From: Ignavibacteriota bacterium
GTDB taxonomy: Bacteria > Bacteroidota > Ignavibacteria > Ignavibacteriales > Melioribacteraceae
Direction of reading: 5' to 3'
Assembly: GCA_013112585.1 (NCBI GenBank)
Contig: JABFGH010000008.1
Location: 124,001-188,000, forward strand
Length of the DNA stretch: 64,000 nucleotides
In this document: positions 8,751-51,067 of the stretch, piece by piece
Layout of the letters: each line of letters opens with the position of its first letter
Position numbering within the stretch: the first letter of the stretch is position 1
Notes under the pieces: generated by a model
The model's database searches: none
What the model was told of the DNA's origin: nothing
Seen by the model: only the letters and a program-made list of their open reading frames with translations
Position numbers and translations under genes: made by a program

Positions 8751-8772
8751 CTTCCAAAACTCAAAAATACAA

Positions 8773-10066
8773 GGTCATCGAGTAGTCCCGCCCTTTGGGA
8801 CGTACCGAGATGCCGGTTATTTGTTAAACAATGCACCGGAACTGTGAAGTAAAGTTCAACCGCGCTGCGGTTGTGGTTTCTGTTTGCTTTTCCTCGCTAC
8901 AAACATTGGACGGCGCTGCCGTCTAAAATACAAACAACAAACTGTTCTAACAATTCATCGTAAAATGTTCATCCAATTAATCCGTTTCTTTTCAAACCGC
9001 GTTAGCGGTTCAATGTTTGTAGCACGAACAACAACAAAACCCGACCAACCACGTTAGTGGTTGAACAAAAACTAACCGCAAATTCCCAAAGATTATGCAA
9101 TTAATTCACCCGTCAGAAAGCCCCGCCCATAACATTCAAATCATCAAAGGTCATCGAGTAGTCCCGCCTTTTGGGACGTATCGAGATGCCGGTTATTTGT
9201 TAAACAATGAACCTGAACTGTGAAGAAAAGTTCAACCGCGCTGCGGTTGGGTTGATCTGTAAATCATCATTTCTACAAACATTGGACGGCGCTGCCGTCT
9301 AAAATACAAACAACAAACTGTTCTATCAATTCATCGTAAAATGTTCATCCAATTAATCCGTTTCTTTTCAAACCGCGTTAGCGGTTAAATGTTTGTAGCA
9401 TGAAAAACAACAAAACCCGACCAACCACGTTAGTGGTTGAACAAGAACTAACCACAAAATCCCAAAGATTATGCAATTAATTCACCCGTCAGAAAGCCTC
9501 GCCCATAACATTCAAATCATCAAAGGTCATCGAGTAGTCCCGCCTTTTGGGACGTACCGAGATGCCGGTCACTTCGATATATCCCAAAGAACGGGATTAC
9601 TCAGCCGCCTATCATTATCTAACAAAAATTTTTATCCTATCAGTAATAACAAAATATCTTGTATGTTACTTTAAAGAAGGAGTTCAACCGCGCTGCGGTT
9701 GGGTTGATCTGTAAATCATCATTTCTACAAACATTGGACGGCGCTGCCGTCTAAAATATAAATAACAAACTGCTCCACCAATTCATCGTAAAATGTTCAT
9801 CCAATCAATCCGTTTCTTTTCAAACCGCGTTAGCGGTTAAATGTTTGTAGCACGAACAACAACAAAACCCGACCAACCACGTTAGTGGTTGAACAAAAAC
9901 TAACCGCTAATTCCCAAAGATTATGCAATTAATTCACCCGCCAGGACAACCCACCCATATTATTCAAATCATAAAAGGTCATCGAGTAGTCCCGCCTTTT
10001 GGGACGTATCGAGATGCCGGTCACTTCGATACATCCCGCGCTGCGGGATTACTCAGCCGCCTATCA
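8773..10066. repeat. Hairpin-repeat array B, tandem composite units of ~376 bp
   Basis: Four copies of the GGTCATCGAGTAGTCCCG element start at 8773, 9149, 9525 and 9977. The first two intervals are both 376 bases; the third is 452. Each complete unit contains, in order, that element, AACCGC-GCT-GCGGTT, GACGGC-GCT-GCCGTC, AACCGC-GTTA-GCGGTT with its ATGTTTGTAG tail, and AACCAC-GTTA-GTGGTT, joined by conserved spacers (for example CATCGTAAAATGTTCATCC). The 9525 and 9977 copies carry a longer version of the first element ending GGGATTACTCAGCCGCC. The order matches array A, so the whole unit amplifies as a block. No protein gene is supported here. Confidence 0.9.
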
Positions 10067-33671: not shown

Positions 33672-33962
33672 ATGAGAGACATTTCAGTTTTAAATGATAT
33701 AATTCCAGTGGGTCAATTCAAGTCCGGTTTAGCAAAGTACCTTAAGGAAATCCAAAGCAAACGTAACTCTTTAATTATCACGCAAAATGGAAAACCTGCA
33801 GGAGTATTAATTTCACCGGCAGAATTTGATGATTTGAGGCAAACAAAATTCTTCATCGATTCAATTTCACGCGGCTTAACTGATTCCGGGAAAGGGAATG
33901 TATTAACTACTGAAGAGCTTAAAAGTGAATTAAAGAAAAAAAGAGCCGCAAAAGTAGGATGA
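33672..33962 (+). CDS. Phd/YefM-family antitoxin
   Basis: The protein has 96 residues. The N-terminal 60 residues match the Phd/YefM fold: VGQFKSGLAKYLKEIQ followed by the LIITQNGKPAGVLISPAEFDDL-type strand-turn-helix. The C-terminal part is charged and flexible, as expected for toxin neutralisation. AAGGA lies 6 bases before ATG. The stop overlaps the toxin start by 4 bases (ATGA). Such antitoxins repress their own operon; no obvious operator palindrome was picked out upstream. Confidence 0.9.
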   Translation: MRDISVLNDIIPVGQFKSGLAKYLKEIQSKRNSLIITQNGKPAGVLISPAEFDDLRQTKFFIDSISRGLTDSGKGNVLTTEELKSELKKKRAAKVG

Positions 33963-34264
33963 AATTATTATGGAGTGAAGAGGCTTTACTTAGATTACAA
34001 GAAATTGAAGAATATATTTCAAGAGATAATCCTACTGTTGCGATTAAATTTGTTAACAAGTTAATATCCGTTGCTGAAACAATAATTGAAAATCCGAAAA
34101 TCGGCAGAGTTGTGCCTGAGCTATCTCTTGAAAACATCCGTGAATTATTGCATAAGAATTATAGGATTGTTTACTTAGTTAAGAAAAACTCGATTGACAT
34201 TCTTACGGTATTCGAAGGACATCAATTATTAAAAAAAGAAGAAATAATTAAAAGTGAAAAATGA
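33959..34264 (+). CDS. RelE/ParE-family toxin
   Basis: The protein has 101 residues. It shows the family layout: WSEEALLRLQEIEEYI helix at the start, NPKIGRVVPEL in the middle, then the strand block IRELLHKNYRIVYLV and a final ILTVFEGHQLL with the typical His near the end. It overlaps the antitoxin by 4 bases. The R-E-L-x(5)-YRIVY block and H-Q-L-L end lean to the ParE/RelE plasmid-stabilisation subgroup. Whether it cuts mRNA or poisons gyrase cannot be told from sequence. Confidence 0.9.
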   Translation: MKLLWSEEALLRLQEIEEYISRDNPTVAIKFVNKLISVAETIIENPKIGRVVPELSLENIRELLHKNYRIVYLVKKNSIDILTVFEGHQLLKKEEIIKSEK

Positions 34265-36691: not shown

Positions 36692-36752
36692 TAAATATGG
36701 CAAGTCCCAATTATAACTATTCTTCAACCACGCTGAAGATGCAGTTATATAA

Positions 36753-36818
36753 GAATTTAACTTATTAAAAATTGACTTCAACCCGAATTATGCATTAGAA
36801 ATAATTAAAAAAGTCTAA
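36753..36818 (+). pseudogene. Short remnant of a TPR-like gene end
   Basis: The frame reads EFNLLKIDFNPNYALEIIKKV and then stops. The NPNYAL pattern is typical of tetratricopeptide repeats. There is no start and a stop codon lies directly upstream, so it is at most a relic, and could be chance. Confidence 0.25.
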
Positions 36819-37071
36819 ATAAAAATTGTCTTTTTAATTGCACCGTCATTCTTGCCCGTCCGACAGGCAGGTATGACGGTGATTGATTTTAAAATTATGT
36901 AAGGGGCTTTAGCCCGTCTTTGCCGGTGAGCAGGCCCAAAACCTTTGGGTTATCCCAAGGATTCCTTTAGAAAAACCCAGGATTTATGTTTGTTCAAATC
37001 CCGCCTGCCGGACGGGCAGGATTCACGGCGCTGAAGCACCGTGCTATTATCTCTTTTGCATGATTCGGGTT
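36780..37071. repeat. 292-bp segment bounded by 15-bp inverted repeats
   Basis: AACCCGAATTATGCA at 36780-36794 is matched, with one mismatch, by the inverse TGCATGATTCGGGTT at 37057-37071. Between them lie four hairpins: CACCGTCAT/ATGACGGTG (36841-36881), GGGCT/AGCCC near 36905, CCTGCC/GGCAGG (37004-37020) and CACGG/CCGTG (37024-37043). There is no coding frame inside. The form is like a small non-autonomous element, but no target-site duplication was recognised. Confidence 0.5.
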
Positions 37072-37116
37072 CAACTAATAAATATTTGATAAATTACTCA
37101 ACACTGCAAAGTTTAT

Positions 37117-37181
37117 AACCCCGTTAGGGGTTAAATGTTTGTAGAAAAAAAGAAGAAAAACATCGAACCGCAGAGCGGTTC
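37117..37181. repeat. REP-like hairpin pair, isolated copy
   Basis: AACCCC-GTTA-GGGGTT (37117-37132) with the ATGTTTGTAG tail, then GAACCGC-AGA-GCGGTTC (37165-37181), follow the pattern of arrays A and B with compensating changes in the stems. The remaining part of this gap to 37704 has no gene I can support. Confidence 0.75.
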
Positions 37182-37704
37182 AACCAAATTATTGTAAGGG
37201 GTAAAATTATATCCGAGAGGCAAATTTTTTTTAACCACGGGTAAAATCCGTTGAAAAAGATAACAGTGCGGAAATGAACTATGAAGTAGTTCAAGTATAA
37301 ATTTATTTTTGATATGATTAATGGAACTTGCCATAAATATTAAGCTAAAACTCGATTTCTAATTTTTTGTTGCCAATTTGTAACCAATTTTGACACCCAA
37401 TAAGTAATTATTACTGAAATTTATTTAAATCCAAAAATAAGGGTTCAAAGAAGAGTGTTAAATGTTTTAGTGAAAATAACGTGCATAAATTTTTTTAGAA
37501 GGATTTATACAATAAATGCCGTTTTTATTCAAAATTTAAGTTTTTAAAAATATTTGCGATTATTATGAAGAAAGTTAGTATAAATTGCCCGATAAAGATT
37601 TTTGGGAATAGTTTTTGTATAAGTTGATAAGAAACACAATTACAACCCGAAGAGAGGAATCGGGAAATAATTATTAATATAATTTAATTGAAGAAGAGGA
37701 GTAA

Positions 37705-38238
37705 ATGGAATTAACAACAATAGCCTTCTTAGAATCTTACAGCCTTGAGAACAGTGCCGGCATAATGGGAGCAGTTCTTGTTACAGACACCGACACTAAA
37801 CCGATTGAGTTTAGAGTTACCGCACCAATTAAGCCGACAAATTTTCAAAAAACTTTATATGGTGATGTTTTACTTGAACACATTCTTGTTGAACTTATAG
37901 GCGTACCGTTATTAGAAGCAATTAAAGAAGAAGTGGATATTATAGTTGTACGCGATCCCTTATTCTTAGGCTTAAATAATAAACAAGGTGTTAGAGTTCT
38001 TAGAGTTTATAAAGAAGAAGAAGGACCTGCTAGAGCCGGAACATCAAGTAAAGAGATAGCAAGTTCAAATAACGGCACTTCAAAAGTTTTGGCAGAAACA
38101 TTAAACAGATTTGAAAATGAACTGCCGGAAATTTTGGATAAGCTTAATACTATTTCTGAAAGCAGACATCTAGTTGAACCATTTGAAAGACTGAAAGTTG
38201 CTTGCGAACAAGTACAATCGCAAAAAGGCAAAGAATAA
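37705..38238 (+). CDS. Conserved-looking protein of unknown function, partner of SNF2-like gene
   Basis: The protein has 177 residues and a good ribosome-binding site (GAGGAG). I do not recognise the family. The first 110 residues look like a compact alpha/beta domain: IMGAVLVTDTDTKPIEFRVTAPIKPT, then QKTLYGDVLLEHILVELIGVPLLEAI and VDIIVVRDPLFLGL. The last 60 residues are a flexible Ser/Asn linker and a charged helix, possibly coiled coil. It ends 6 bases before the 1164-residue SNF2-like gene, so they form a two-gene unit. The strict pattern EFRVT-P-KPT--QK-LYG is what I would use to find relatives. Confidence 0.8.
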   Translation: MELTTIAFLESYSLENSAGIMGAVLVTDTDTKPIEFRVTAPIKPTNFQKTLYGDVLLEHILVELIGVPLLEAIKEEVDIIVVRDPLFLGLNNKQGVRVLRVYKEEEGPARAGTSSKEIASSNNGTSKVLAETLNRFENELPEILDKLNTISESRHLVEPFERLKVACEQVQSQKGKE

Positions 38239-38244
38239 CTTGTT

Positions 38245-41200
38245 ATGTACCGGAAGGTAAAAAAGAAGATTGCAGCTTCAATTACCAATCTTGATTCCCC
38301 GGCAACAAAAAAGAAACTTATCGATATGGCTCCGGCTGAAACGCGGGCGGAAAAAGTTGAGGTTCTTTCTGAGCCGGGTATTATCCCTTTTGATTTTTAC
38401 AAACTGACTAAACCCAAATACGCGCTTGTAAAAACAAAGTTTCCCCAGGTAAGCGTTATCAGCACTTTCGATGAGTATTTTATTAAAAAATCGAAAACTA
38501 ATGTGGTGTTTTTCGACTTCGGAAGAACCAAATCTAAAAACGTGGCAATTGATTCTGATAATAAAACCAAAATTAATTTTACTGCAAGTGTTATCAGCAG
38601 CAGTGATTCTATTGTTCTTAAAACAAAAGAAATTGGTGAGCGTGAAAAAACCGATAAAATAACTTCAGCCAATTACCAAATGGATTTTGATATTTTAAAA
38701 GTAGATAATTCTGATATCAAAATTGAAATTGGAACACCCGCCAAGGTTGAAAAAATTAAAACCAAACTTCAAAAAGATACCCCGCTTGAAATTAATTTCC
38801 GACCGAAAGATGCTGATACCTTTGGTATCTTTAAAAGAGAATTATTAACCGATGAAAATATTTCTGAAAATGCATTAAGTGAATTTACTGAGCCTGACTT
38901 TAGTTTACCTTCTGAAAGCATTGATAGTGTAAATTATTTAATGTCAGTACCGGAAATTAAAAATTATATAGATGAGCAAGTTCCCGTTGTATTTGAAGTG
39001 AGCCTTAATCAAGCCTCGCTTAATACCGGTGATTTTGATGCTGATGCAGCAATTGAAACAACTGATTATTCAGGCATATTCGGTTTAGAGGAAGCGCAAA
39101 AAGATAGTGTAGGTGAGATAAAAGACCATTCTCAATTATTCGGTTTAAATATTGATGAAAGTACTGTTTCTATCAAAATAGAAGATCATTCAGATTTATA
39201 TGGTTTAAATGTTGATGAAAGTACTGATTCTGTTGAAATAGAAGATCATTCCGATTTATTTGGTTTAAATATTAACGAAAGTATTAAAGCAATTGAGCTA
39301 AAAGATTACTCTGATTTATATGGTTTGAATGATCATCTATACATCAAAACAATTGACTACCTTAAAGAGTTTAACAAAGACTCTGTAACAACCGCAGTCT
39401 CTGAAAATAAATTAGATGTAAATGATACCGAGATGCCCGGCAAACCGGAAATTTATGACATGCTTAAAAGTAATGTTCATGATATTCCCAAAGAGAGCAA
39501 AGTATACGCTAAAATTAAGCTTGATAAATTTGCAGCAACTGAAACTATTGATATACTTTCCCTTGCAAAGGAAGATATAGAAGAATTACCGGAAGCACCC
39601 TCAACTACTGAACTTTGGGCGGATCAATATTTCAGCACACCTAAAATCATTTTTGAACTTACAGATATTAAAGACCCAAAATTTGAAAGACCCAAATTAT
39701 TTAAAGTAACTTTTCAGGACTTTGATTCTTCGAGCATTCAACTACAGGAAATTAGCAATGTAAGTCTAAGCTCAAATATTCTAAACATAAACTCTAACCC
39801 TGTTTTGGCTCAGCAAAAAGTACTCGAGCTAAAAGCTGCCACTAAGCTCGAACTTAAAAAGACTGATAAGAAACTTGAAGATGTTCTGAATAATTACTTT
39901 CAATTTTTAATGCAGCCTTCCGTTGAATTAACTAAAGAAGAAAAAGCCGAATTACTATTCGGGCTGCATGATTATCAGATTGAGGGAGTGGACTTTCTTT
40001 CGTTGAATGAAAGAGCCGTCCTCGCCGATGATTTAGGACTTGGTAAAACTGTTCAAGCAATAGCCACCTTAAAAATTTTGATGAGACAAAGGATTGTACG
40101 AAAAGTTCTTATTGTTACAAATAAAGATGAAATGGGCAGCGAAGAACTTTCTGAATTAAGTGATACACCAATTGGCTGGGCAGGACACTTTTTGCATTGG
40201 GCTGATCAGTACAGCATTTCTTTAATCGATGGAGTAAAAAGTAAGAGGAAAAATAAATGGAGTGAAAATTCACAAATTAACATAATCGATTACAATAGTT
40301 TATTGAATGATTTTAAAAATTCATTATTAAGTGAAGATAAATTAAATTCGTTTGATTGTATTATTTTTGACGATTATGAAACTCTCCTTACAAATAAAGA
40401 TAAGTATGAATCTTATCTTTCAAAAATAACATCAAAATATGTTTGGAATTTAACGAGCAGTAATCAAAACGTAAATTTGGAAGATACAAACAAACTCCTT
40501 TTAGGCAGCGGAACTGAAAGTAAGGAATTTGCAGTGTTACACCGCTCCCGATTAAGTGTATCAACCGGTTTACCGCTTGTTGTCCGAAACGAAAGATGGG
40601 TTAGTTTTGATGATGAACAAAATACAGCTTATACTAAAGCTTTAGAAGAAGGCAGGAACCAACTTGAAAACTTTCTTTCAACAGGAAATATCCTTCGTTT
40701 CCAGGCAAATGTTTTATTCTTTCTGCATAAATTAAATCAGCTTTCAAACTTTGTAGATGGTGCACAGACAAGCAGCAAATCAAATATTCTGATGAATTAT
40801 GTAAAAACTATTGCTGCTAATAAAAGTCAGGTAATAATTTATTCCAATTATGATAAACAGGGAACTAAGCAAATTGAAGAACTCCTCGATACATCGGAAA
40901 TTAAATATGCTAAATTCCTTGCAGGTATGTCTTCAGAAGAATTAAATAATTCCGCAGCTAAATTTTCCGGTGATAAAAATATTACTGTGCTGCTTGCCAG
41001 CTTCAAATCTGCCGGTGCGCGCAAAGCACTCCCATCGGCTCCTTATTTAATTAATTTCGATCCTATCTGGAGCCCAACCGCTCAATGGCAAATTGAGGAT
41101 ACAATTATTTCAAAATTTAAGGGAAAGACGCAAGACCAGTTTAGCTTAACAGTTTATAATTTACGAGGCGAAACTGAAATTGAAAAATCAATTCTTAAAA

Positions 41201-41739
41201 CGCTTGGTGAAAAAGGATTTCTCGAAAGAAATTTATGTGATAATATTCCGGCACAAACTTTTAGTAATATATTAACTGATGATGAATGGAAAAATATTAT
41301 CGGTCTTAAACTAAAAGATGAAAAGGATTCTAAGAAAACATCCGTTGACGATAAACTAAAAACGGCGGCAGATAAAATCGGTAAGCTGAATAAAGATGAT
41401 CTGCTCGCTAAAATATCTTCACTCCTTAAATCGCTCGGGTTTAAGAAAATTGAAAAAACCGAAGATGGTTCAACAGATAGGACTATACTTTCATGCAAGT
41501 TCGATAGGAATGGTGTTGAGCAGTTTGCAAAAATTAATTGTGTACTTACTGATGATACAAACTTAAATTCAATCAAAGAGTTCGTACACTTCCAATCAAC
41601 AAAATCCGATTTACACAGATTGATTGTAATATCAATTTATCCCCTGCCTGTAAATATATTAGACTTCAAAAGCCAAAAGGTAACGTTCGTTGATCGAGAA
41701 CTACTTGCTAAATATTTACTTCACTTTAATGAAATATAA
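38245..41739 (+). CDS. Divergent SNF2-fold protein with acidic repeats and Mrr-like C-terminus
   Basis: The protein has 1164 residues. About 1-555 is an acidic, low-complexity region with four to five ~21-residue repeats (about 270-375; core DHSDLYGLNVDES). About 565-985 has the SNF2 layout: LHDYQIEGVDFL, then P-loop ADDLGLGKTVQA at about 594. However, the DEAH box is FDDYE, motif III is LTSSNQN in place of LTGTP, and the motif VI region reads QWQIEDTIISKFKGKTQ where arginine fingers are expected. Residues about 1050-1164 resemble an Mrr-type nuclease fold (LLKSLGFKKIEKT, LIVISIYPLP, VTFVDRELLAKYLL) without clear catalytic residues. It may bind ATP but probably does not act as a standard translocase (inference). 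Confidence 0.8.
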   Translation: MYRKVKKKIAASITNLDSPATKKKLIDMAPAETRAEKVEVLSEPGIIPFDFYKLTKPKYALVKTKFPQVSVISTFDEYFIKKSKTNVVFFDFGRTKSKNVAIDSDNKTKINFTASVISSSDSIVLKTKEIGEREKTDKITSANYQMDFDILKVDNSDIKIEIGTPAKVEKIKTKLQKDTPLEINFRPKDADTFGIFKRELLTDENISENALSEFTEPDFSLPSESIDSVNYLMSVPEIKNYIDEQVPVVFEVSLNQASLNTGDFDADAAIETTDYSGIFGLEEAQKDSVGEIKDHSQLFGLNIDESTVSIKIEDHSDLYGLNVDESTDSVEIEDHSDLFGLNINESIKAIELKDYSDLYGLNDHLYIKTIDYLKEFNKDSVTTAVSENKLDVNDTEMPGKPEIYDMLKSNVHDIPKESKVYAKIKLDKFAATETIDILSLAKEDIEELPEAPSTTELWADQYFSTPKIIFELTDIKDPKFERPKLFKVTFQDFDSSSIQLQEISNVSLSSNILNINSNPVLAQQKVLELKAATKLELKKTDKKLEDVLNNYFQFLMQPSVELTKEEKAELLFGLHDYQIEGVDFLSLNERAVLADDLGLGKTVQAIATLKILMRQRIVRKVLIVTNKDEMGSEELSELSDTPIGWAGHFLHWADQYSISLIDGVKSKRKNKWSENSQINIIDYNSLLNDFKNSLLSEDKLNSFDCIIFDDYETLLTNKDKYESYLSKITSKYVWNLTSSNQNVNLEDTNKLLLGSGTESKEFAVLHRSRLSVSTGLPLVVRNERWVSFDDEQNTAYTKALEEGRNQLENFLSTGNILRFQANVLFFLHKLNQLSNFVDGAQTSSKSNILMNYVKTIAANKSQVIIYSNYDKQGTKQIEELLDTSEIKYAKFLAGMSSEELNNSAAKFSGDKNITVLLASFKSAGARKALPSAPYLINFDPIWSPTAQWQIEDTIISKFKGKTQDQFSLTVYNLRGETEIEKSILKTLGEKGFLERNLCDNIPAQTFSNILTDDEWKNIIGLKLKDEKDSKKTSVDDKLKTAADKIGKLNKDDLLAKISSLLKSLGFKKIEKTEDGSTDRTILSCKFDRNGVEQFAKINCVLTDDTNLNSIKEFVHFQSTKSDLHRLIVISIYPLPVNILDFKSQKVTFVDRELLAKYLLHFNEI

Positions 41740-49687: not shown

Positions 49688-49759
<72 letters not shown>

Positions 49760-49762
49760 CAA

Positions 49763-49796
49763 AAAAAATCCCGATCAAAAGATTGGGATTTTTTGT
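49763..49796 (+). terminator. Terminator after tRNA-Asn
   Basis: AATCCCGATC and GATTGGGATT form a stem (one G-T pair) around AAAA, followed by a T run. The same hairpin recurs after both tRNA fragments (near 50121-50142 and 50475-50500), so it is part of the duplicated unit. Confidence 0.88.
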
Positions 49797-49816
49797 TTTA
49801 AATAGTTGGGGTATTT

Positions 49817-50071
49817 ATGTTTTATGTTTACGTAATTTATTCTAAAAAGTTTGATAAAATTTACATCGGGCAAACTATGGATTTAGAAATCAGACTAGAA
49901 GAACATAATGATGGCTTATCAAATTATACTAAAAAATTTATTCCATGGGAACTGGTTTACTCTGAAAAAGCTGATACCAGATCTGATGCTCTAAGAAGGG
50001 AGAAGCAGTTGAAATCAAGTAGAGGACGAAGTTTTATTTGGAATGATATTATTGGTAAAGACAAATATTAG
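49817..50071 (+). CDS. GIY-YIG nuclease-domain protein, copy 1
   Basis: The protein has 84 residues, a single GIY-YIG domain. The two-strand signature is YVYVIYS at residues 3-9 and YIGQT at 16-20, followed by Arg in IRLEEHN, KKFIPWELVY and the catalytic Glu region REKQLKSSRGR. Its TAG stop overlaps the first G of a repeated tRNA-Asn segment. Single-domain GIY-YIG proteins of this size are common in this phylum; their biochemical role is mostly unknown. The position after a tRNA and the copied tRNA end suggest that it is part of a tRNA-targeting mobile unit. Confidence 0.9.
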   Translation: MFYVYVIYSKKFDKIYIGQTMDLEIRLEEHNDGLSNYTKKFIPWELVYSEKADTRSDALRREKQLKSSRGRSFIWNDIIGKDKY

Positions 50072-50115
50072 GGTTGTAAGTTCGATCCGTCAGCCGACGG
50101 ATTACTCGCGGAGCA
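50071..50115 (+). repeat. tRNA-Asn 3'-half copy 1 with hairpin in T loop
   Basis: GGGTTGTAAGTTCGA, identical to the variable loop and 5' T arm of the tRNA, is followed by TCCGTCAGCCGACGGA and then TTACTCGCGGAGCA, which restores the acceptor 3' strand. Compared with the tRNA, five bases in the T loop are replaced by an 18-base sequence holding a 6-bp hairpin. It cannot make a tRNA alone because the 5' half is missing. Confidence 0.88.
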
Positions 50116-50170
50116 AAAAAAATCCCGATCAAAAGTTCGGGATTTTTTGTTTTAAATAGTTGGAGTATTT

Positions 50171-50425
50171 ATGTTTTATGTTTACGTAATTTATTCTAAA
50201 AAGTTTGATAAAATTTACATCGGGCAAACTATGGATTTAGAAATCAGACTAGAAGAACATAATGATGGCTTGTCAAATTATACTAAAAAATTTATTCCAT
50301 GGGAACTGGTTTACTCTGAAAAAGCTGATACCAGATCTGATGCTCTAATAAGGGAGAAGCAGTTGAAATCAAGTAGAGGACGAAGTTTTATCTGGAAAGA
50401 AATTATTGGTAAAGACAAATATTAG
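50171..50425 (+). CDS. GIY-YIG nuclease-domain protein, copy 2
   Basis: The protein has 84 residues and differs from copy 1 only near the C-terminus (ALIREKQ for ALRREKQ, and WKEIIG for WNDIIG). All motif residues are kept. Upstream spacing, terminator and the start region are also copied, so this is a duplication of the whole ~350-base unit. Its stop again overlaps the first G of a tRNA-Asn fragment. The few differences being mostly in codons that change residues suggests recent duplication rather than long selection, though the sample is small. Confidence 0.9.
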   Translation: MFYVYVIYSKKFDKIYIGQTMDLEIRLEEHNDGLSNYTKKFIPWELVYSEKADTRSDALIREKQLKSSRGRSFIWKEIIGKDKY

Positions 50426-50469
50426 GGTTGTAAGTTCGATCCGTCAGCCGACGGATTACTCGCGGAGCA
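50425..50469 (+). repeat. tRNA-Asn 3'-half copy 2 with the same hairpin
   Basis: This copy is identical over its 45 bases to the fragment at 50071-50115, including the TCCGTC-AGCC-GACGGA hairpin. A terminator hairpin follows and serves the end of the convergent gene at 50510 as well. Confidence 0.88.
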
Positions 50470-50509
50470 AAAAAATCCCGATTGAAAGATTGGGATTTTT
50501 TGTTTTAAA

Positions 50510-51067
50510 TTATTTTAATTGATTATACCTAAAACATTTTACTATATGATCATTAACCATACCCACTGCCTGCATAAATGCATAACATATTGTTGAACCG
50601 ACAAATTTAAATCCCCGTTTCTTTAAGTCTTTACTCATTGCATCAGACTCTCTTGTCATCGCCGGAATTTCTTTAAGAGATTTCCATTTATTAACAATTG
50701 GTTTACCTCCAACAAAACTCCAAATATATTTATCAAAACTTCCGAACTCTTTTTGAATTTTCAGAAATGCTTTAGCGTTACCCACAGCAGAATTTATTTT
50801 CATTTTATTTCTAACAATGCCCGGATTCTGCAATAGCTTTTCAATTTTCTTTTCTGAAAAGCGGCTGACTTTTACGGGATCAAAATTATCAAAAGCTTTA
50901 ATATAATTTTCACGCTTCTTCAAAATCGTTATCCAGCTTAGTCCGGCTTGCGCTCCTTCAAGAATTAAAAATTCAAAAAGTTTTCTATCATCGTGGAGAG
51001 GCACTCCCCATTCTTCATCATGATATTTTATATATAGCGGATCAGTTCCGCACCATTCACATCTCAT
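50510..51067 (-). CDS. tag: DNA-3-methyladenine glycosylase I
   Basis: It excises 3-methyladenine from alkylated DNA. The protein has 185 residues, the usual size. Family signatures: RCEWCGTDPLYIKYHDEEWG-like start with the zinc-ligand Cys, the FEFLILEGAQAGLSW block at about residue 32, and the C-terminal GSTICYAFMQAVGMVNDH with the other zinc ligands His and Cys (HIVKC). It is a single gene, convergent with the GIY-YIG element. Confidence 0.95.
   Translation of the reverse strand: MRCEWCGTDPLYIKYHDEEWGVPLHDDRKLFEFLILEGAQAGLSWITILKKRENYIKAFDNFDPVKVSRFSEKKIEKLLQNPGIVRNKMKINSAVGNAKAFLKIQKEFGSFDKYIWSFVGGKPIVNKWKSLKEIPAMTRESDAMSKDLKKRGFKFVGSTICYAFMQAVGMVNDHIVKCFRYNQLK

Follow-up and report, generated by a model that had tools for sequence, protein, structure and literature searches.

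The stretch analysed here, called the window, covers 64 kb of a 4.9-Mb Ignavibacteriota genome and carries two co-oriented open reading frames (ORFs) separated by 6 nt, of which the first encodes a 177-residue protein, P2, and the second a 1164-residue SNF2-like protein, P1 (Table 1). An earlier note, made from the letters of the window, had described an unrecognised small protein next to a degenerate SNF2/Mrr-like one, and both ORFs are present as claimed, on the same strand. The two proteins form an obligate pair across the family, and in Ignavibacteria the SNF2 core of P1 has lost the motifs of a motor while remaining under purifying selection.

Table 1. Coordinates of the P2-P1 locus and its features within the window
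Feature	Coordinates	Strand	Description and evidence
P2 ORF, 177 aa	37705..38238	+	ORF; predicted RNase H-like fold (Endonuclease V/DUF99/UvrC/PIWI-like)
P1 ORF, 1164 aa	38245..41739	+	disordered N-terminal tail; SNF2 core and Mrr-like C-terminal domain, both predicted inactive; ORF, Pfam, alignments
P1 basic N-terminal segment MYRKVKKKIAASI...	38245..38316	+	conserved; candidate docking element
P1 tail short motif YIDEQVPVVFEVSL	38965..39006	+	window form of ignavibacterial [DN]YLxxLxPEIxxIxLL
P1 acidic 20-residue repeats IEDHSDLYGLNVDESTDSVE	39114..39357	+	TRF, composition
P1 SNF2-derived two-lobe core, residues 574-963	39964..41133	+	Pfam; alignment to intact cyanobacterial SNF2
P1 motif I DDLGLGKT	40027..40050	+	kept
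P1 motif II position	40360..40386	+	IIFDDYETL replaces DEAH/DEAQ
P1 motif III position	40447..40464	+	NLTSSN replaces LTGTP
P1 motif V-VI region WQIEDTIISKFKGKTQ	41044..41133	+	arginine finger lost, W-x-P kept
P1 C-terminal Mrr/PD-(D/E)xK-like domain	41371..41736	+	catalytically degenerate; AF2 model, Mrr_cat in relatives, structure matches

Among 58 genomes, comprising the window genome and its relatives, P2 occurs in 17 and P1 in the identical 17. Those relatives of the pair that bear a name belong to Ignavibacteria. In the 16 carriers other than the window genome the two genes are adjacent and in the same order as in the window, so that every P2 carrier (17/17) has an adjacent P1. Identity to the window proteins is 51-67% for P2 and about 24-37% for P1 where it can be aligned, and no conserved third gene was found in the sampled neighbourhoods of these relatives. 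Since only 17 of the 58 genomes possess the pair, it is not essential. A single scan of genome contigs for P2, based on close patterns, gave 47 loci: 38 with P2 closest to the ignavibacterial P2s (L051-L088), five in filamentous cyanobacteria and four in Persephonella. One of the 38 (L052, positions 986-2254) was set aside, as it lies on a 3.4-kb contig of a metagenome-assembled genome called Gammaproteobacteria and is probably mis-binned; in the protein downstream of P2 there, the SNF2 core is replaced by a winged-helix and nucleotidyltransferase-like region, which is joined to a P1 tail of the ignavibacterial type. A widened profile applied more broadly in the phylum found P2 in 10/395, all within the ignavibacterial order. 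No P2 was found in IMG/VR viral contigs, plasmids or phages, and a reading of the pair as a mobile element was rejected on that result.

In the P2 tree the ignavibacterial proteins form a supported clade (99/99), the cyanobacterial P2s branch beside it, and grouping partly follows the host family. In Aquificota most of the pairs occupy the same chromosomal position, next to dnaK. Three aquificotal P2s stand alone (L094, L095 and L146), and their cognate SNF2 genes lie at other loci of the same genomes: in G426 and G776 as an undivided copy of 61% identity, in G429 split into two parts. In three more distant genomes (L152-L154) the gene downstream of P2 encodes a small protein that lacks an SNF2 core. 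One of these distant P2 genes (L152, 6888-8266) lies beside the genes of a sigma factor resembling FliA and of a PilZ-like protein, and at L140 the P2-SNF2 pair lies downstream of fliR-flhB-like genes; a link of P2 to motility is possible, unsupported at the other loci. Both the pair and its motif pattern recur in dozens of genomes and thus cannot be put down to chance.

Pfam recognises the two lobes of the P1 core (SNF2-rel_dom, E 8e-12, residues 577-752; Helicase_C, 5e-7, residues 847-950). A 466-residue alignment with an intact cyanobacterial SNF2 protein (32% identity, E 3e-76) makes its descent from SNF2 clear. The sequence motifs were read correctly in the earlier note: GLGKT is kept, FDDYE stands for DExx (IFDDYETL, so that a DExH/DEAQ motif II is absent), TGTP is missing and the arginines of motif VI are gone, WQIEDTIISKFK taking the place of QAEDRxHRIGQ without the RxxRxGQ arginine finger. 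The alignment gives no support for intact catalytic residues elsewhere in the protein, and the claim of a degenerate core stands.

The core shares its two-lobe descent with the Swi2/Snf2 family of superfamily 2 (PF00176 and PF00271), of which the cyanobacterial and aquificotal partners of P2 are complete members. Full SNF2 motifs were observed in all 12 partners outside Ignavibacteria (four complete cyanobacterial and eight aquificotal), in the forms DEMGTGKT or DQMGTGKT, DEAQ or DEAH, TGTP or SGTP, and AEDRxHRIGQ. In contrast, TGTP and the second (RIGQ) arginine of motif VI are absent from 35/35 aligned ignavibacterial P1s, and most of these also lack motif I: a GxGK[ST] P-loop is retained in ten, whereas in the other 25 it is substituted or deleted (GIDKK, GCEKF, LNKEL or none). 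One P1 (L051, identical to L035) lacks the entire first lobe. On the simplest history, motifs III and VI disappeared once, in an ancestor, and motif I was lost later on several independent occasions.

Such erosion raises the question whether P1 is being lost. Motifs I, II, III and VI have indeed been lost relative to the other phyla, the pair is missing from many relatives, and one cyanobacterial locus is a remnant (L093, 8001-8645, Nostoc mirabile), in which an internal deletion has apparently joined P2 in frame with a portion of the second SNF2 lobe. However, every complete ignavibacterial P1 is an ORF of 755-1164 codons, and Nei-Gojobori ratios of nonsynonymous to synonymous substitution (dN/dS) in close pairs are 0.02-0.07 in P2; within P1 they are 0.04-0.16 (dead core), 0.04-0.23 (C-terminal domain) and 0.11-0.31 (tail). 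Several dS values are saturated, which makes the ratios approximate, but all are far below 1 and those of the core are well under 0.2. Decay was accordingly rejected for the family and we consider it highly improbable; the second circumstance that the earlier note had named as fatal to its claim, full motifs in relatives together with a decaying gene here, is only half realised: such relatives exist in other phyla, but the gene here is not decaying.

The same note had made ATP binding a defining property of the protein, and this does not hold. Conservation of ATP binding as the function of the family is incompatible with a GxGK[ST] loop in only 10/35 copies and with the absence of the first lobe from L051. 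What is real and conserved, judging from the sequences, is the obligate pairing of an unrecognised small protein with a derivative of SNF2 that has most likely ceased to translocate. It could still be argued that P1 binds ATP as a switch that opens and closes a clamp without translocation, given DDLGLGKT in the window and the ten ignavibacterial copies with an intact loop. Yet the 25 copies with altered loops are also under purifying selection (the core dN/dS of L081/L082, with the loop GCEKF, is 0.04), and a switch of this kind is not family-wide. We regard it as rather unlikely in general, though it may apply to the window copy.

A second catalytic fold in P1 shows a comparable loss. The C-terminus of the window P1 has no match in Pfam; Mrr_cat (PF04471) matches the C-termini of 14/31 relatives (best 2.4e-8), and an AlphaFold (AF2) model of the domain alone (predicted local confidence, pLDDT, 89; predicted template-modelling score, pTM, 0.81) resembles AF1548 (Z 11.0, root-mean-square deviation 3.1, 108 aligned residues), LlaBIII (Z 10.1) and MspJI (Z 9.3). 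The Mrr-like C-terminus of the earlier note is thus supported at the level of fold. It is related in this way, and by weak sequence similarity, to Mrr and to the nuclease domains of the Type ISP enzyme LlaBIII and of MspJI, but differs from them in that the catalytic D and (E/Q)xK occur together in 0/31 copies, the window columns being I and KxN. The domain is missing from three ignavibacterial P1s (L053, L060 and L067); instead of it, a PNP domain or some other extension is present in the active cyanobacterial partners, and no extension in the aquificotal ones. In this sample the Mrr-like domain is thus a feature of the ignavibacterial branch.

P2 matches nothing in Pfam, NCBIfam, PADLOC or PHROG, so that its description as unrecognised is right at the level of sequence families, but it is probably not without a known fold: the AF2 model (pLDDT 87, pTM 0.84) is RNase H-like. 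The nearest structure is Endonuclease V (Foldseek 3.4e-5; Z 12.8, root-mean-square deviation 3.3, 165 aligned residues), followed by DUF99 (Z 12.6), AfPiwi (10.4) and UvrC (9.9). P2 differs from Endonuclease V (PF04493), DUF99, the UvrC C-terminal domain and PIWI, with which its model shares the fold, in having neither a sequence-profile match nor a conserved equivalent of the catalytic set, and in invariants of its own (D28, Q48, YG and EPxxR). Over the most diverse set the invariant residues are D28, F36, T39, Q48, Y52, G53, E158, P159 and R162, the last three forming E158-P159-x-x-R162. The position where the FRE motif of Endonuclease V would place Glu is occupied by V38, in a mapping made from fold ranges and inspection. 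Residues equivalent to the catalytic set of Endonuclease V are not, as a set, conserved in P2, although positions 10 and 84 are mostly acidic; P2 is unlikely to be a nuclease.

This fold suggests one alternative, namely that the pair is a housekeeping factor of DNA repair or transcription, with P2 as a lesion reader of a pseudo-Endonuclease V/UvrC-like type and its SNF2 partner acting like RapA, the motor having become dispensable in Ignavibacteria. The resident chromosomal location in Aquificota agrees with it, but the presence of the pair in fewer than a third of the genomes and the lack of a conserved link to repair genes do not, and we think it improbable.

The tail of P1 offers possible contacts between the two proteins. 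The acidic repeat region noted earlier is real: in the window, TRF reports a period of 60 nt in 3.6 copies (39114-39330), coding for about four acidic repeats, and residues 266-370 contain 24% D/E and 6% K/R. The basic N-terminal segment recurs in ignavibacterial relatives as M-x-R-x-x-R-K-K-x-A-S-S-I-S. Similarly, DYLxxLxPxI was observed 13 times in ignavibacterial tails versus 0.07 expected from shuffled sequences, and S[DEQN]NL eight times in cyanobacterial tails (0.07 expected) and seven times in those of Aquificota (0.12 expected). These recurring motifs are suggestive as candidate P2-docking sites.

We propose that P2 and P1 form a two-protein complex, in which P2, with an RNase H fold devoid of a conserved nuclease site, would be the conserved hub that docks linear motifs of the disordered N-terminal tail of P1. 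The putative ancestral form, which Aquificota and Cyanobacteria still show, would pair P2 with a working SNF2 translocase of double-stranded DNA. Before the ignavibacterial copies diverged, the core would have lost motif III and the arginine finger, becoming a pseudo-translocase that may hold DNA without moving along it and that also bears a nuclease-fold (Mrr) domain without catalytic residues. A pseudo-translocase core combined with a non-catalytic Mrr domain would make the complex a DNA-bound scaffold or sensor rather than an enzyme. The lineage-wide loss of the motor, the selection acting on P1 and the near constancy of P2 point to a conserved job in scaffolding or nucleic-acid recognition. 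We give an even chance to the view that P2 is a hub docking the tail of a former translocase that now serves in Ignavibacteria as a non-enzymatic DNA-binding scaffold. The pairing, the loss of motifs, the purifying selection and the domain make-up of P1 are established here and the fold of P2 is a prediction, whereas complex formation, tail docking, binding to DNA and the scaffold role are inferred.

Several observations weigh against this view. The tail motifs differ by lineage and were picked by inspecting the sequences. Four P1s (L054, L057, L067 and L069) combine an intact motif I with DE in motif II, and weak ATPase activity is possible in them. Position 10 of P2, near the catalytic Asp of Endonuclease V, is acidic in 28/35 proteins (G, S, A or N in the rest) and position 84 in 35/35, a pattern that leaves room for residual metal chemistry. 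Finally, no profile link ties P2 to Endonuclease V: comparison with two endonuclease V-like sequences by hhalign gave a probability of 1.7, no PF04493 hit was obtained, and a P2 profile search of the sequences in the Protein Data Bank returned a chance hit only (E 2.9). Homology at the sequence level was rejected on these results, and the relation is one of fold similarity only.

Alternatively, P2 and P1 could constitute a system for conflict or anti-phage defence, in which P2 would be the sensor and P1 a DNA-engaging effector or decoy. The PADLOC models nearest to the SNF2 core are ZorD, DpdE and DrmD; from those systems an obligate 177-residue partner is not known. The patchy distribution of the pair would fit a conflict role. 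The cyanobacterial partners carry a PNP-superfamily domain (PADLOC effector 6e-32, PF01048 6e-13). Pairs of a PNPase with a two-transmembrane (2TM) SLATT protein have been described in conflict systems (PMC7159879; Kaur, Burroughs, Iyer and Aravind), and the cyanobacterial homologues resemble these PNP-effector systems in the PNP domain and in a small protein with hydrophobic stretches, both of which are absent from the window pair and the ignavibacterial copies. On the other hand, among the ten proteins neighbouring the window pair PADLOC detected no member of a defence system (an ordinary GTPase gave a weak match) and none of the Zorya, DISARM or Dpd partner genes; relatives have no conserved neighbours, and no copy was found in plasmids, phages or viral contigs. 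The fixed site beside dnaK in Aquificota and the grouping of P2 partly by host family are the behaviour of a resident gene. Location in a defence island, raised in the earlier note together with a role in genome defence, is thus unsupported by the neighbours in the window or in relatives, the defence role is unproven, and we judge a conflict function to have a low probability.

At three cyanobacterial loci (L089, 8001-11950, and also L091 and L092) P2 and an SNF2-PNP fusion are followed by a protein of 184-196 residues whose hydrophobic stretches look 2TM/SLATT-like by eye. PADLOC does not match the module as a unit, and it is a candidate conflict module.

Returning to the reading of P2 as a hub, a wider formulation seems plausible to us at somewhat less than an even chance: the complex would be conserved, DNA-bound and built from a whole lineage of catalytically inactive SNF2 motors, the majority joined to an equally inactive nuclease, with an unnamed hub of the RNase H fold (Endonuclease V/PIWI-like) keeping it together, and the hub would be older than the motor and swap effectors (active SNF2, SNF2-PNP, pseudo-SNF2 or no SNF2). 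SNF2 proteins of bacteria are as a rule taken to be motors, and the relatives with an intact motor provide a natural before-and-after comparison for an SNF2 core without ATP. P2 itself represents an unnamed family whose predicted fold is common to Endonuclease V and to the PIWI domains of Argonaute. In the open-access literature no paper was found on SNF2 in Ignavibacteria and no description of an SNF2 partner with P2. A bacterial parallel is the PriA pseudohelicase of Deinococcus radiodurans, a helicase-fold protein that is reported to lack helicase activity (PMC4504706). PriA is, however, a different superfamily 2 helicase with a role in replication restart, whereas the SNF2 core of P1 has decayed lineage-wide while its obligate partner is conserved.

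The repeat-rich gap mentioned in the earlier note exists beside the pair, but is an incidental dispersed element. The non-coding repeat at 36692-37350 has 83 matches in its own genome, with modules at roughly 86-383 and 379-520 of the query, and contains nested inverted arms (36691-36714/37317-37340 and 36777-36805/37046-37074); a role in the pair was rejected, since the repeat is genome-wide. Elsewhere in the window, a Phd/YefM antitoxin and a ParE toxin are encoded at 33672-34261 (Pfam 4.7e-11 and 3.5e-16), and a non-coding tandem repeat of 376 bp occupies 8771-9569 (2.1 copies, 93% matches). At 49688-50510 a tRNA-Asn gene is followed by two tandem units of ~354 bp. Both units terminate in a copy of the tRNA 3' end, and both contain a terminator-like hairpin and a short ORF that starts MFYVYVIYSKKFDKIYI and resembles a GIY-YIG endonuclease; this is possibly a small element inserting at tRNA-Asn.

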